DNA of 42,742 nt, taken from a virus. Made by a program: the position numbers and the translations under genes. Position 1 is the first letter of the stretch. Each line of letters opens with the position of its first letter. This document shows, piece after piece, positions 7,605-35,528 of the stretch. The stretch lies in IMG/VR virus record IMGVR_UViG_3300042445_002836, positions 1 to 42,742 of that record; one strand, 5' to 3'. The notes beneath the pieces are model-generated. The model was given only the letters and a program-made list of their open reading frames with translations. It was not told where the DNA came from and did no database searches.

Positions 7605-9782
7605 TTATGCACCTGTATATATAATGAATGCTAATGCATAATAAGGTGGTCTGTTTTCGTGAGGGAAATTACCTCCTGTAAAATGTATATTTCCCTCATT
7701 AGGAGGTGTTGGGAAATCTTGAGTACCTATTTCGGTATCCCCTGTCTCTAATCCTCTTCCATAATCTCCGTTATCTCTCCAACTTCTTGTGAAACCGTGA
7801 TTGTGTGAAGGCATTTCAGAAGTATGTAACTTAACGTTGTTAAATCCTCCTTTTTCTCCTACTGTATATCCATTTATATCGGCTACCCATTGTATCGTAC
7901 TAATATTAGGTCTATGTGTTACTAGGTTACCTGTTTGTGATAATACTGCTATAGATCCTGGTGGGAATAGTACGTATGGATATCCTGTTGTTACATTAGT
8001 TCCATTTGCAGGTACATAACCTCTGTATAATACGTAATTATCTAGACCTTGATGATACACTAAGAAGTACGATGTATTTGCACTATTACCTACTAGTGAG
8101 TATAGTGCGTATTGTCTGCCAATGTCCGGTGTGCCTGGTGTGCTTTGACCCATATTAGAATTAAAAACCGCTGTGCTAGGGGTAGGATTCGTTACCATAG
8201 AAGTATTACTTACTTTAGTAAACGTTCCTTGTACGTATGAATTCCCTGTATTAAAAGTTAAGTTTGAATTTATAGTAAATGTAGTAAAATCGTATGTTAC
8301 TACCTCATTATTCTTTCCTCCTGCTCCTACAATAAATCTTTCTCTTAAATCTGGAATTGTTACCCCTCCTACCGGTGCTCTACCATCACAGAGTGTCCAA
8401 CCTGCTGGAGGTGCTGTTGGTGACCCTGCCCACATTACAATACCTCCTAGTGGAAAAGTACCTGTAATATATTGAATCTGCCCTATAGAGCCAGCTGTCT
8501 GGCTTACTGTTAATACCCTTGGGTTAGATTCAACACTTGCTGGTACATTTAATATAGTTGCTATATTTCCTACTGTTAGGTTTGTACCTACAGCTGCCGA
8601 TGTTCCTGTTGTTAATGAAAGTCCTACTGCAGCAGTTCCTGTTGTTACTGTATTTCCTTTTACTGTAAAAGAACCTGTTACAATAGTATCTCCGTTTACA
8701 TCTAATTTAGCATTAGGTATTGATTTGTTCATAGAGATATTTCCATATGAATCAATTCTGAATCTCTCTTCTATACCTATATCTCCTGGTGCATGTGGAC
8801 TTGTACTTTGACCTGTTCCTATTGAGAATCCATGTAAGTTACCTTGTCCGCTGAACTGTATATAAGTACGGTAGGATCCGTCAACATCCTGTTGAATTCT
8901 CATTCCGTTACTCAACCAATCTCCTCCTCCAGCTAGCTGTCTAACTGATAGTATTTTTAATGAGTCTACGTTTTGTTGCGGTGTTATTCCAAATTGAGCA
9001 ATAGTTTGAAAGTCTCCTAATAATGTCCCTGTTTGTGCTGTCTGGAATACATGTAGTGCTGCTGACCCTGGTCCAGTTCCTACTCCTAATCTTCCTGCAA
9101 AAAATCCATTACCTTCTGCATGAAAAAGGTGTTGTGGTGAGAAGGTACCTATACCGAATCCGGCTTGTGTAAAGGCTCCGTAATTTGCATTACTCCCTAC
9201 TACAAACCTAATATGCCCTGGGTCTTGAAGTTCAGCAAATTTTCCAGAAGGTGCCCATGATTTTATGTACAGGTTATTATCATTATGGTCATGTCTTCCG
9301 ATAGTTCCCATAAGTGTTGTTCCTTGATAGAAATCTACAGCAGCTCGTCTGTTTGTACCTACTGTAACAGTACTCTCCAGTCTTAATGTGGCTGGGATAG
9401 CGTTTGTACCTTTTGCATGTATTTTTGCATTTGCAGCAGGAAGCGATACTCCTATTCCTAATTGCTGTGCAGTATTGTATAAGAACCCGTTGTCTGCATC
9501 TAGAATAGGATTAGTACTATGTCTGAATTGAATAGTTCTTGGATCTCCTGCTACTACTAGTGTAGGTGTTGCTCCTGTAGTTGGCTGTAGATCAATAGGT
9601 ACAAACCTAGCTGGTCCAAAATCATCTCCTGGTGCAGTATTTAATGTACTACTTCCTGTATACCACAGTTTTAGCATATTACCATTATCTATAGACGCAG
9701 AATAAAAGAAGGAAGAAAAGTTCCTATCCATCTCATTATAGGTAAGTGCTGATGCTTTGTTTGTTCTTAATTGTATTGCCAT
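7605..9782 (-). CDS. Tail fibre with C-terminal phage tail-collar domain
   Basis: The product has 725 residues. The N-terminal anchor MAIQLRTNKASALTYNEMDR is shared with the 601-residue fibre. A tail-collar domain starts near residue 446 (GGIVMWAGS, then PPAGWTLCDG and IPDLRERFIVGAG). The C-terminal tip has SEMPSHNHGF at about 655-664 and ENRPPYYALAFIIYTGA at the end. In T4 gp12 and related fibres, HxH residues like those in SHNHG bind metal in the receptor-binding tip. This is therefore the best candidate for the receptor-binding short fibre. The middle (about 100-360) is beta-rich and unrecognised. Confidence 0.85.
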   Translation of the reverse strand: MAIQLRTNKASALTYNEMDRNFSSFFYSASIDNGNMLKLWYTGSSTLNTAPGDDFGPARFVPIDLQPTTGATPTLVVAGDPRTIQFRHSTNPILDADNGFLYNTAQQLGIGVSLPAANAKIHAKGTNAIPATLRLESTVTVGTNRRAAVDFYQGTTLMGTIGRHDHNDNNLYIKSWAPSGKFAELQDPGHIRFVVGSNANYGAFTQAGFGIGTFSPQHLFHAEGNGFFAGRLGVGTGPGSAALHVFQTAQTGTLLGDFQTIAQFGITPQQNVDSLKILSVRQLAGGGDWLSNGMRIQQDVDGSYRTYIQFSGQGNLHGFSIGTGQSTSPHAPGDIGIEERFRIDSYGNISMNKSIPNAKLDVNGDTIVTGSFTVKGNTVTTGTAAVGLSLTTGTSAAVGTNLTVGNIATILNVPASVESNPRVLTVSQTAGSIGQIQYITGTFPLGGIVMWAGSPTAPPAGWTLCDGRAPVGGVTIPDLRERFIVGAGGKNNEVVTYDFTTFTINSNLTFNTGNSYVQGTFTKVSNTSMVTNPTPSTAVFNSNMGQSTPGTPDIGRQYALYSLVGNSANTSYFLVYHQGLDNYVLYRGYVPANGTNVTTGYPYVLFPPGSIAVLSQTGNLVTHRPNISTIQWVADINGYTVGEKGGFNNVKLHTSEMPSHNHGFTRSWRDNGDYGRGLETGDTEIGTQDFPTPPNEGNIHFTGGNFPHENRPPYYALAFIIYTGA

Positions 9783-9797: not shown

Positions 9798-10866
9798 TAT
9801 CTATTTTTACAATGAAAGTCATATCTGTATTTGCAGATTTTGGTACCGGTTGACCCATTTTACCTACTGCTATTAGTTCATTTGCATCGTTGTATAATCC
9901 GACTGTTGTAATATACGGTTGGAAGTAGCTTCCTGTTACGTTATTATGTAAGTCTCCTGTTGATGAAGCAAGTGTATTTGAATACTCTGTTCCGTCATTA
10001 TAGTATGTTGTTTTTATTGAACTACTTAGTGCTGAGGGATTATATGTGTGGTTAAATTCCGACTCTCTAATCCTACAGTGGTAGTTATGTGTATAAATAG
10101 GATGATTAGATTTCCATCTAACTGTTCCGTCTACATAGTCCATTAGGTAGTTTGCTACAAGCTCGTCTGTGATTATAATCTGACCGTGAGTGTATATTAC
10201 ATTTCCTACATACTTTCTAGGACTAGAACATTTTAAGTATAGGTTACCCTCTCCATCATCTACTATAGTAGATGAATACCCATCTGGTGTATCTAAATAT
10301 TCTCCTCCTGCTGCTGGTGTTTCTTGTACATAGTTACCTTCGTTAGTCAAGTAATCGCTACCAATTATATTACAAGCATTTGGTGTAGATCCGTATATGT
10401 TAAAGAAATCTTCTACGTAATCATCTTCTGCGTTTTCTCTGGCGTAAGAAGAGAGTACATAACTTGAAGAGACTCCTGCTTCAGGAACTATTTCTAGAGA
10501 GAAAGGTTCAATGTGAGTACCTACAATATCTCTTGGCATAGAGTAAACCCCTATATACGAATGTATGTTTCTAGATCCACTAGTGTAAGAGGATTGTAGA
10601 AAGTTGTCATAAGATCCTGTAGTTGTTATACTTCCGCTTTGAAATAAGCTGTAATATAAATGATTTGTACTTTGAAAGATTAATCTCTTGTATGAAATAC
10701 TTTGTATTTCGTTTGTAGGTAAGTAGTAATTTGAAGAACCGGAGATACCTACAAGTGTCTCTATTCTATTTGCGCTATAATCACTACCAGATACTGCCCA
10801 AGATTTTCGGGCAGTGTATGTGGTTATGTAAGCATCTTGCTTGTTTAGTTTTTTGTAAGCACTCAT
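9793..10866 (-). CDS. Virion structural protein, paralogue of the next gene upstream
   Basis: The product has 357 residues and no named domain that I recognise. Its C-terminal 90 residues match the adjacent 344-residue protein: both have an R-SEF-N motif (RIRESEFNHTYNPS here) followed by YITTVGLYNDANELIAVGK. This implies tandem duplication of a structural gene. Its place between the baseplate and fibre genes suggests a baseplate or fibre-attachment component. It lies 3 bp downstream of its paralogue. Confidence 0.65.
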   Translation of the reverse strand: MSAYKKLNKQDAYITTYTARKSWAVSGSDYSANRIETLVGISGSSNYYLPTNEIQSISYKRLIFQSTNHLYYSLFQSGSITTTGSYDNFLQSSYTSGSRNIHSYIGVYSMPRDIVGTHIEPFSLEIVPEAGVSSSYVLSSYARENAEDDYVEDFFNIYGSTPNACNIIGSDYLTNEGNYVQETPAAGGEYLDTPDGYSSTIVDDGEGNLYLKCSSPRKYVGNVIYTHGQIIITDELVANYLMDYVDGTVRWKSNHPIYTHNYHCRIRESEFNHTYNPSALSSSIKTTYYNDGTEYSNTLASSTGDLHNNVTGSYFQPYITTVGLYNDANELIAVGKMGQPVPKSANTDMTFIVKIDI

Positions 10867-28026: not shown

Positions 28027-28440
28027 CTATTTCTTAAAGAAAAGTTCATAAAACTTAAAAATAATTGCACATTTCTCGTACATCTCTAATTCTTTGTAGA
28101 ATTCAAGCATTTCTTCTAAAGCATATTTAATGGCCTGGGGACCAAATTCATCCTTTAGCTCTTCTACTGTATCTGCCTTTATATCCTTAACCCTCTCAAG
28201 GTAATTTACAAGGCCGTTAAAGTACTTTAGCTTTATATTTTCTCTTACGGAGCCATACCTTTCCTGATATCTATTGGCATACATTTTGTCTATAATGAAG
28301 TAATTCTCCACACCTCTGACAACCATGCCAAAAAGTATGAAGGTATTATCCATCATATCCTCTATCTTGTGTTCTTTGTAAATCTCTTCATCTCCTATGG
28401 AAAATATATTGAAAAGATCATCGCTATTTAGCTTTTTCAT
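28027..28440 (-). CDS. Unrecognised early protein (137 residues)
   Basis: The protein is acidic and largely helical (MKKLNSDDLFNIFSIGDEEI; C-terminus FKFYELFFKK). No known motif is seen. The stop codon touches the next promoter. It has a long leader (about 80 bp) after its promoter at 28530-28561. That leader also holds a CCTTTTAGG inverted repeat. Confidence 0.65.
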   Translation of the reverse strand: MKKLNSDDLFNIFSIGDEEIYKEHKIEDMMDNTFILFGMVVRGVENYFIIDKMYANRYQERYGSVRENIKLKYFNGLVNYLERVKDIKADTVEELKDEFGPQAIKYALEEMLEFYKELEMYEKCAIIFKFYELFFKK

Positions 28441-28529
28441 CTTATATAAATATATACTTAACCTATAACGAAAAATTTTCCGGAAAAAAAACTGGGGGTA
28501 GTTGGAAAATTACCTAAAAGGTTCTATAT

Positions 28530-28561
28530 TAAATATAAGAAACAAATCTGATAAGATACAA
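28530..28561 (-). promoter_or_regulatory. Early promoter of the 137-residue gene
   Basis: TTG-N21-TATATTTA, one base longer in the spacer than every other copy. Confidence 0.6.
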
Positions 28562-28876
28562 CATAAGAGGTAGGTTAGGGGTATAGGTGGTAACCGTGCT
28601 AGGGTTTAGCAGCTATATAGATCAAACTTGAGAGAGAGGACACCTTGGGCAGTAATTCTTCTTCGGAAGGACTAGGATTGGATTGGTTGGGTCCATAACA
28701 ACATCTCTCTTAAAGCTATGTAGTATATATAAATATATACCCCCATACCTCAATTTTCATCAGAAATATACAACTCTATGTGGCTCCGGATACCCGAGTA
28801 GCTACCCGTTGAGGGAACTTAACTATCAAACTTCTCTCAACTTGACCTCACCGTGACATCACCTTGACCACCGGTC
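28562..28876. other. Gene-free region with hairpins and short repeats
   Basis: No ORF above 24 codons is supported. It holds a TGCTA/TAGCA hairpin (28597-28611), a CTTC-TTCG-GAAG hairpin (28658-28669), a TATATAAATATATAC element (about 28729-28743), two ACCCG hexamers 12 bp apart (28792-28809) and 11-bp tandem repeats (28842-28874). A 24-codon minus-strand ORF starting MDPTNPILVLPKKNYCPRCP carries a CxxC motif and may be a gene remnant or a short peptide. Confidence 0.5.
28842..28874. repeat. Three 11-bp direct repeats
   Basis: TTGACCTCACC, GTGACATCACC and TTGACCACCGG follow each other without gaps. One-turn spacing suggests a protein-binding array. They lie just beyond the terminator of the 82-residue gene. 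Confidence 0.6.
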
Positions 28877-28903
28877 AAAAAAAAAGTTAGTCCGAAGACT
28901 AAC
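28877..28903 (-). terminator. Rho-independent terminator with UUCG loop
   Basis: The perfect 7-bp stem GTTAGTC-TTCG-GACTAAC on the minus strand is followed by nine Ts. The TAG stop of the 82-residue gene lies inside the first arm of the stem. It ends the transcript from the promoter at 29176-29206. Confidence 0.92.
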
Positions 28904-34165: not shown

Positions 34166-34218
34166 CTCTTATACGTTATTTATACTCATTATAAATTAAA
34201 AAAAAGTTACTAAAATAG

Positions 34219-34249
34219 TTGCTAGTAACAAAGATCGTTCGTATCTTTA
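34219..34249 (+). promoter_or_regulatory. Rightward early-type promoter (only plus-strand copy)
   Basis: TTG (34219-34221), N20, TATCTTTA (34242-34249), then GGTATG. Spacer and flanks (GTTGCTAGTAACAAAG) are like the leftward copies. AAAGAT/ATCTTT can pair across the -7. It would transcribe 34256 onward, a stretch with no plus-strand gene beyond a 16-codon ORF at its start. Confidence 0.85.
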
Positions 34250-34255
34250 GGTATG

Positions 34256-34420
34256 TTAGAAGGGAATACGGGGCCTGGCTTTGAAAGAGAGTCGGAAGAG
34301 TAGACGGGCCGGTACGCCATGTTCGTTACTTAAAGCAAAGCTTTAACTTAAACTGTTACTTTAACTTAAAGTGATGCTTTAACTGAATATTTTACTTAAA
34401 GGAAAGCTTTAGATAAAAGG
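34256..34420 (+). ncRNA. Predicted rightward non-coding transcript (3' end unknown)
   Basis: The start is inferred from the promoter at 34219-34249. The first part (34270-34320) is far richer in GC than its surroundings, and an 18-bp repeat block follows. Continued transcription would be antisense to the small basic ORF at 34396-34551. No clear rightward terminator is seen, so the end is arbitrary. Confidence 0.45.
34329..34412. repeat. 18-bp repeat block
   Basis: CTTTAACTTAAACTGTTA (34341-34358), CTTTAACTTAAAGTGATG (34359-34376) and CTTTAACTGAATATTTTA (34377-34394) are tandem. They are bracketed by near-identical 18-mers CTTAAAGCAAAGCTTTAA and CTTAAAGGAAAGCTTTAG. Units contain TTTAAnTTAAA-type partial palindromes. 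Confidence 0.75.
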
Positions 34421-34551
34421 AAAGGGCCCTTGTGAGGCCCCTGCTTGGAAGAGGAGTGCTTCTCCTTCCTGGTGTAGGTCTTCTTAGACTTCTGAATGGT
34501 ATGCCGTGAGGCTGCCCATCGCTCTTGCATTGTAATCTGAATCTGTTTCAT
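34396..34551 (-). CDS. Small basic ArfA-like protein (51 codons)
   Basis: It begins MKQIQITMQERWAASRHTIQ and continues KSKKTYTRKEKHSSSKQG. The KKxYxRKxKH stretch recalls the C-terminal end of the active ribosome-rescue factor ArfA (GSYMRKGKHGN in E. coli) and small basic phage proteins with similar ends. A terminator-like hairpin (34422-34442) with a TTTCCTTTT tract lies inside the ORF, about 17 bp before the TAA. The mRNA would often lack a stop codon, which is the known mode of ArfA control. The family assignment is tentative and based on a short motif. Confidence 0.55.
   Translation of the reverse strand: MKQIQITMQERWAASRHTIQKSKKTYTRKEKHSSSKQGPHKGPFLLSKAFL
34415..34442 (-). terminator. 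Terminator-like hairpin inside the small ORF
   Basis: Minus strand AGGGGCC-TCACAAG-GGCCCTT: 7 bp including one G-U pair, then CCTTTT. It lies ahead of the ORF's stop codon. Confidence 0.6.
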
Positions 34552-34561
34552 AGGTATAGGT

Positions 34562-34771
34562 TTAATAAAAATACATATTGTGAACCGTCTGAATAGGAAG
34601 CTTAAATTTCTTACCCACTGAGATATTACTCCATTGGTTCCTATTATACATAGTAGGAGTTACTTCAAGTAAGCACCAAAGAGAAGTTACCGTAAGCAAT
34701 TTAGCCCTCAGTGTAGGAGAATTATTACATGAACAATCCTTTCCTATTACCTTATTTAATTCCTTTACCAT
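34562..34771 (-). CDS. Unrecognised early protein (69 residues)
   Basis: The ATG at 34769-34771 (MVKELNKVIGKDCSCNNSPT) was chosen because the promoter at 34795-34825 lies inside the longer open frame. The longer version (start 34981) would be encoded by the ACGGGT repeats. It begins 24 bp past the -7 and ends 10 bp before the ArfA-like ORF. It has a CSC motif, no recognised family. Confidence 0.65.
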   Translation of the reverse strand: MVKELNKVIGKDCSCNNSPTLRAKLLTVTSLWCLLEVTPTMYNRNQWSNISVGKKFKLPIQTVHNMYFY

Positions 34772-34794
34772 ATGATTATTTGTTTTTATATACC

Positions 34795-34825
34795 TAAAGA
34801 TAAGAACCATAGGCCATATAAGCAA
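34795..34825 (-). promoter_or_regulatory. Early promoter before the 69-residue and ArfA-like genes
   Basis: TTG-N20-TATCTTTA, then GGTATA. Confidence 0.85.
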
Positions 34826-34886
34826 CTCTTTTATAGGCTTTTTACCCCCGAAGGGGATAAGTACCTGGTTTCTACCGGGGAAAGAA

Positions 34887-35020
34887 ACGGGTTCCAAACA
34901 GGTAAAGAGAACGGGTCTCAATTGGGTCACTAGACGGGTAACAAAACGGGTAGCTAGAACGGGTTTGTAACGGGTAACCAATCGGGTTACTAGAGAGTGA
35001 AACGGGGCTATAGAACGGGT
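34887..35020. repeat. ACGGGT hexamer array, block 1
   Basis: Exact ACGGGT at 34887, 34911, 34934, 34946, 34959, 34970 and 35015. One-mismatch forms are at 34898 (ACAGGT), 34982 (TCGGGT) and 35002 (ACGGGG), and 34922 (TTGGGT) differs at two positions. Steps are mostly 11-13 bp, about one helical turn, all in the same direction. Base content differs from the AT-rich surroundings. Confidence 0.9.
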
Positions 35021-35296
35021 ATCTACTATAGGTTTTCCTTATTATAGAAAAAAACTATTAAGGAGACACACCCGCCACATTTTTCCTATCCTTATTTTAC
35101 CTAGCCTTATCCTCTTTCTTACACATCGTATATACTGTACAGTACCTTTTCTTACCTAGTACTCTATGTCTTTATACTCTTTGTATGGTTTTTCTACCCT
35201 TTATGTTTAATCAAAGTCCTTCACCTTTTACTATGTATCTCAGTAGTTCTCTCTATGTCTCTCCTTATATCTCCCGTACGTGATACGTATGTATAA
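35021..35296. other. Pyrimidine-rich gene-free spacer between hexamer blocks
   Basis: The plus strand here is mainly T and C with few purine runs (for example CCTATCCTTATTTTACC). No ORF is supported. A TGTACA palindrome occurs near 35138. Its place between two hexamer blocks suggests a replication origin or control region; no direct proof is visible. Confidence 0.5.
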
Positions 35297-35348
35297 ACGG
35301 GTATCGAACGGGTAGAGAAACGGGTATGGAATGGGTCTATGAATGGGT
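35297..35348. repeat. ACGGGT hexamer array, block 2
   Basis: ACGGGT at 35297, 35308 and 35320, then ATGGGT at 35331 and 35343. Steps are 11-12 bp in the same direction as block 1. The last copy overlaps the 3' end of the 63-residue gene. Confidence 0.9.
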
Positions 35349-35528
35349 CTCTCGCCATCTTTCCAATAGCATTTCTCCTATCTTCATCCTGTCTTCTAGG
35401 CCCTTTAATTCCTTTATTACCTTAGGTGTCTGTTCTCTTTCCTTTAATTGTTCTCTCCTCTTTACTACCTTTCGTATTATATGATTTGAATTAGGATCCT
35501 TTAACTTATTTATTCCCCATACTTCCAT
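35337..35528 (-). CDS. Unrecognised basic helical protein (63 residues)
   Basis: It is highly charged and helical (MEVWGINKLKDPNSNHIIRK, then VVKRREQLKEREQTPK). Basic charge and position beside the hexamer array make a DNA-binding role conceivable, without evidence. Its stop lies inside hexamer block 2. Confidence 0.6.
   Translation of the reverse strand: MEVWGINKLKDPNSNHIIRKVVKRREQLKEREQTPKVIKELKGLEDRMKIGEMLLERWRETHS

Follow-up and report, generated by a model that had tools for sequence, protein, structure and literature searches.

A split array of ACGGGT direct repeats, arranged in two blocks around a conserved gene-free spacer, was identified in a 42,742-nucleotide viral sequence (IMG/VR record IMGVR_UViG_3300042445_002836, positions 1 to 42,742; hereafter, the window) and recurs with the same architecture in a group of T4-like phages of Bacteroidota. 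Our tentative reading is that a protein would bind the array cooperatively and that the site would most likely serve as a replication origin of the iteron type. The features of the locus, with predicted elements named as such, are as follows.

34217–34254, plus strand: predicted promoter of the non-coding RNA (ncRNA); all genes lie on the other strand
34255–34442, plus strand: conserved ncRNA, with the core GGGGCCTGG-hairpin-CGGAAGAGTAGAC at 34270–34306 and a likely shared terminator at its end
34396–34551, minus strand: small basic ORF, 51 aa (MKQIQITMQERWAASRHTIQKSKKTYTRKEKH...), present in 23 of the 26 array records examined
34562–34771, minus strand: left gene Y (69 aa), in whose place relatives have unrelated genes
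34790–34827, minus strand: phage-type promoter predicted from sequence (AGTTGC, ~20 bp, TATCTTTAGGTAT), pointing away from block 1
34875–35020, plus strand: array block 1, 11 ACGGGT-type direct repeats at 11–13 bp steps, plus a weak CCGGGG unit at 34875
35021–35296, no strand assigned: conserved gene-free spacer, 276 bp, alignable across both motif types and without an RNA fold on either strand
35039–35067, plus strand: TTATTATAGAAAAAAACTATTAAGGAGAC, the part of the spacer with the highest conservation; mostly AT-rich, at a distance of 19 bp from block 1
35117–35125, plus strand: position of a putative DnaA-box-like element; the window has TCTTACACA, with one mismatch, and 8 of 16 loci have TTTTACACA or TTATACACA
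35297–35348, plus strand: array block 2, five direct repeats (3 ACGGGT, 2 ATGGGT) at 11–12 bp steps
35337–35528, minus strand: 63-aa protein, encoded by an ORF whose 3′ end runs into block 2; its conservation does not follow that of the array

Composition of the repeat array

Across 34887–35020 and 35297–35348, a total of 16 ACGGGT-type units (10 exact) were counted, every one on the plus strand. The units of block 1 start at 34887, 34898 (ACAGGT), 34911, 34922 (TTGGGT), 34934, 34946, 34959, 34970, 34982 (TCGGGT), 35003 (ACGGGG), and 35015, and those of block 2 at 35297, 35308, 35320, 35331, and 35343, two of the latter being ATGGGT; all steps measure 11–13 bp, with the sole exception of one 21-bp step at a degenerate unit. 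The window contains 12 copies of ACGGGT where 4.2 are expected, a count reached in none of 100 shuffles, and the longest run of [CT]GGGT at 11–13-bp steps comprises 7 units, compared with a maximum of 2 in 200 dinucleotide shuffles. When all 5-mers of the plus strand of the window were considered, a run of 5 was seen for CGGGT only. The array is real and far outside chance expectation, and the first-pass annotation, which had described about 16 same-direction copies or near variants of ACGGGT at 11–13 bp steps in two blocks, is borne out by a count that the shuffles never match.

Two further properties ascribed to the array at that stage fared less well. Helical-turn spacing had been taken to imply one protein bound along one face of the DNA, which is contradicted by the mean unit step of ~12 bp rather than 10.5 bp: neighboring sites are turned by ~50 degrees around the helix and would, because of this rotation, be arranged as a solenoid and not on one face. 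The spacer had been described as pyrimidine-rich, and it is (66% pyrimidine), but a skew almost as strong extends over the entire flank, where the plus strand is pyrimidine-rich because all genes lie on the minus strand; the bias is therefore specific to the spacer only in part.

Conservation of the array and its motif types in relatives

The window is a fragment of a virus related to Flavobacterium phage vB_FspM_immuto (Immutovirus, 160 kb; hereafter, immuto), which has T4-like head and tail genes; relatives were fetched with a Band_7/phrog_200 protein as the query. In immuto (locus L005), block 1 occupies positions 9602–9765 and block 2, with 8 units, positions 10080–10179, and the spacer is closely alignable with that of the window; in the immuto genome (MW353175; host Flavobacterium sp. 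LMO8), this array region of roughly 600 bp corresponds to 66.3–66.9 kb. The same two-block layout, with ~16–20 units and the blocks 250–300 bp apart, is shared by immuto and by more than 20 relatives from metagenomes, and the conservation of spacing on which the initial description of the array had been staked held in all of these. The common order is ncRNA, small basic ORF, swappable gene, block 1, conserved spacer of 250–300 bp, and block 2. A scan with the spacer core retrieved 8 viral stretches, all 8 with the array, and a scan with the ncRNA retrieved 30 stretches, 28 of them genuine, in which array units lay ~0.5–0.8 kb beyond wherever the sequence sufficed; two seemingly array-less loci from the latter scan proved to contain the array once their sequence was completed. 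Four loci (L090, L092, L284, and L286) were dismissed as chance pattern matches, and a generic scan of viral contigs for CGGGT repeats yielded mostly unrelated repeats.

In one group of relatives, every copy of the unit is WCGGTT, at strict 12-bp steps (12 bp, 62 times; 13 bp, 5 times), instead of ACGGGT at 11–13 bp (11 bp, 51 times; 12 bp, 86; 13 bp, 30). The unit flanks are conserved, with AA ahead of the core and C behind it, giving 12-bp units of approximately AAACGGGTNTCN and AAWCGGTTNNCY; the pattern by which the units were collected biases the core frequencies, and the flanking AA and C positions were not used in the selection. A more distant relative, L291, has TACGGTTT units, mainly at 11-bp steps, and shares the same core along with TTATACACA, and a shorter, CCGGGT version of the array is present in L080 and L082. 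Among five near-complete or large genomes, each has one array, and the motif occurs at background frequency elsewhere; a single array without motif enrichment fits an origin, a centromere, or a packaging site, not a regulon.

The spacer between the blocks

A structured RNA in the spacer was rejected: across 287 alignment columns, the consensus fold amounts to −1.7 and −0.2 kcal/mol for the two strands, and the z-score of −16 obtained for the plus strand is meaningless at energies near zero. The GC content of the spacer (0.32–0.38) is at the genome level, and the spacer as a whole is no more AT-rich than the genome. The TNNTACACAT element in the spacer matches TTWTNCACA exactly at one aligned position in 8 of 16 spacers, with 1–2 mismatches in the others, against a background of 0.07–0.16 per kb in whole genomes, the 16 loci not being independent; an exact element appears again in the divergent L291. 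This putative DnaA-box-like element is suggestive only. The TATCTTTAGG-type promoter is absent from the aligned spacers, and a sigma-70 scan found none there either.

Two kinds of hairpin insert were observed at the locus. A ~45-bp cassette (GTCGAAGACAGAGTA..GAGATACTCTGTTTCTCAATCTACGAT), which resembles a mobile palindromic element, is inserted at differing points of the spacer in immuto (L005 10035–10080) and in L100 (two copies). The second insert (CGCAGACCAAGGAGCCTGCTCAGGCTTCGCCGT and variants) lies inside or at the edge of block 2 in L079, L081/G010, and L100.

Genes and non-coding RNA flanking the array

INDEPENDENCE of neighbours, with the left gene coming from at least 5 unrelated families and the right gene from at least 7, leaves the array in place. 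Because the flanking genes belong to many unrelated families, the array is not the operator of one neighbor, and the earlier suggestion of a regulator platform is not supported for a particular neighbor: a regulated gene would be conserved with its sites, and here the flanking genes are exchanged across relatives while the array persists. Phage and plasmid operator arrays are similar in that multiple identical sites lie beside a promoter, but here it is the spacer that is conserved and not the regulated gene. The AGTTGC-N20-TATCTTTAGGTAT promoter form is also found ahead of the left gene in relatives, and elsewhere without the array as well. Pfam and PHROGs searches of the array neighbors found no function. 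Contig ends are frequent at the locus: of 30 array-bearing contigs, 14 end no more than 1.5 kb from the array, where 3.7 would be expected. The locus is a hotspot of assembly breaks and probably of gene content variation.

The ncRNA stretch (~190 bp) lies ~0.5–0.65 kb from the array and, for most of its length, is nearly identical to that of immuto (L005 ~8977–9180); the ncRNA was also observed in L287–L311 and, in tandem, in L091. In its core (GCCTGG-covarying hairpin-CGGAAGAGTAGAC), both sides of the pairing changed in 16 cells, and none of 500 shuffles scored as high; there was no Rfam match. Besides the array-bearing phages, the ncRNA was detected in some two dozen further AT-rich phage contigs that have no array. 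We therefore treat the two as distinct features, which may act together or independently. The 51-aa basic ORF is absent from phages that have the ncRNA but lack the array, and no other small gene was found to accompany the module; we do not take this to indicate binding to the array.

Search for the binding protein

The 63-residue basic protein encoded next to block 2, initially proposed as a possible binder, was rejected in this role: the gene is present in 9 of 26 array records, and whole genomes carry the array without it, including the near-complete genomes of immuto, G001, and G010. No initiator gene was recognized beside the array, where the flanking genes are swapped, and no partition NTPase, RHH, HTH, or Rep family was detected among 125 immuto proteins at the sensitivity of Pfam; a remote or unrecognized initiator is possible.

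Proteins that differ in step with the array type were sought as well. A few proteins in the ortholog groups of immuto, G010, G001, and G017 are split by array type, and across ~120 ortholog groups there is no genome-wide split matching ACGGGT versus WCGGTT. DUF932 was split by array type in 5 genomes, but this was broken by G033, with a WCGGTT array and a 94% identical DUF932, and by G019, with an ACGGGT array and a DUF932 of 72% identity, and the protein was dropped as a candidate binder. The DpdA and FolE types match the array type in all 6 genomes that could be compared. As partners, DpdA, FolE, and DUF4494 were nevertheless rejected, given that the other two possible splits show similar numbers of strongly split genes (5 versus 3 and 5). 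The screen for co-varying partner proteins, conducted at the domain level as well, produced nothing above background mosaicism, and the DpdA/FolE match is treated as a lead only, with no partner claimed. As to the gene content itself, immuto (18–37 kb) and G010 have in common QueC, QueF, FolE, and DpdA, all 7-deazaguanine DNA-modification genes, whereas G001 (~138–140 kb) and G017 (~115 kb) lack the QueC and QueF of immuto and encode DpdA with 26–29% identity and FolE with ~50% identity.

Function of the array

An origin, a segregation site, and a packaging site had all been put forward in the first-pass annotation; a cis-acting protein-binding array is the best reading of the locus, and the three are not told apart decisively. 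We favor the origin because of the architecture of the array, its uniqueness in the genome, its independence of the neighboring genes, and the array-wide motif switch. Under this scenario, one sequence-specific DNA-binding protein would bind ~16–20 head-to-tail sites, cooperatively along the 12-bp steps, and wind the DNA up as a solenoid. Both occupied blocks, together with the conserved spacer, would be folded into a single nucleoprotein complex; by melting the AT-rich element next to block 1 and assisting in the loading of the phage's own DnaB helicase and DnaG primase, this complex would let phage DNA replication start there. Immuto encodes a DnaB helicase, a DnaG primase, and PolA.

The same-direction repeat cluster typical of iteron-type origins is present well beyond chance, and a conserved element composed mostly of A and T lies next to them, in a spacer whose overall GC content is that of the genome. 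Plasmid iterons usually step by ~18–22 bp and the units of iteron-type origins by ~20–30 bp, longer than the 11–13 bp found here. Single-locus direct repeats, an AT-rich element beside them, and a putative DnaA-box-like element are features that the array shares with iteron-type origins such as oriLambda, plasmid iterons, the RctB sites of Vibrio cholerae ori2, and the ori of the ICP1 satellite PLE; unlike in these, no adjacent initiator gene was recognized and no GC-skew switch was seen, and the array consists of two blocks around a conserved 250–300 bp spacer. The skew, proposed at first pass as a check for an origin, gave no support: in 4 near-complete genomes, the detrended cumulative GC skew does not switch at the array and reaches its maximum 6–8 kb downstream, at the boundary to the late genes, where it is confounded by gene class. 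For the array-wide change of motif between lineages, the ori modules of PLE are similar, and the PLE/ICP1 origin system provides a precedent (PMC8263062; PMC7145576), with co-variation of iterons and initiator domains documented for the PLE ori (PMC8263062).

Among the alternatives, control of transcription, by a regulator that coats the array and acts on the minus-strand promoter or serves as a roadblock or insulator between transcription units, appears unlikely. It would account for the phage-type promoter ~50 bp upstream of which block 1 ends in the window and aligned relatives, and for the position of the array between transcription units, with an intrinsic minus-strand terminator just before block 2 in immuto. 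Yet the gene served by the promoter comes from any of at least 5 families, and promoters of this kind are also present at sites that have no array. The spacer contains no phage-type promoter, and this model leaves block 2 and the conserved spacer without a role. It is quite unlikely that the array is a pac site, a recombination start, or a decoy acting as a sponge for a host DNA-binding protein: the excess of contig ends and the hypervariable gene content around the array point in this direction, but strain variation and repeats also explain contig breaks, the immuto large terminase gene is ~52 kb away, and a sponge would need neither a conserved spacer nor two blocks. Repeats that function in the transcript are very improbable. 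Repeats of regular spacing can function at the RNA level, and there is a conserved ncRNA close by, but the spacer essentially lacks a consensus fold on both strands, the region in immuto lies between a terminator and a promoter pointing away, and the ncRNA appears to stop well before the array.

A centromere-like segregation or positioning site, at which a ParR- or TubR-like protein would wrap the blocks and link the genome with a filament or the host's DNA, is improbable as well. The unit of the type II centromere parC of plasmid R1 is 11 bp and that of the type III centromere tubC is 12 bp; the spacer of parC is several times shorter than that of the array. Split direct-repeat blocks are the layout of both R1 parC, bound by ParR, and tubC of pBtoxis, bound by TubR (PMC5016525). 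The array has helical-scale steps in common with parC, and the strict 12-bp steps of the WCGGTT type would suit a wrapped filament. Against this, a type II system would combine its two blocks with a par promoter between them and ParM and ParR genes, and here no promoter was recognized between the blocks; nor does the array lie upstream of a fixed operon, as tubC does. ParA, ParM, ParR, TubZ/tubulin, TubR, and RHH families were not found among the 125 immuto proteins at Pfam sensitivity, no annotated name is of this kind, and the gene set looks lytic, with little need for partition.

If the array is an origin, it would supply the replication start point and the binding code for a genus-level group of T4-like phages of Bacteroidota, in which we found no origin described, and the availability of a cultured phage-host pair allows direct testing. 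The array-wide motif switch between close relatives offers a natural experiment on the co-evolution of an origin or segregation site with its protein, as proposed for PLE and ICP1. A broader proposal, in which the array, the convergent ncRNA, and the small basic protein would form one undescribed phage replication module whose binding specificity changed across the entire array from one lineage to another, perhaps along with the DNA-modification genes, strikes us as distinctly improbable.

Other repeats in the window

Two additional repeat-containing regions were observed in the window. Another gene-poor intergenic region, at 28440–28900, contains 11-bp repeats (CTCACCTTGAC), with 3 copies at 28836–28869, and long repeats with a 42-bp period occupy positions 371–2705 within a large minus-strand ORF, the product of which is probably a repetitive tail-fibre-like protein.
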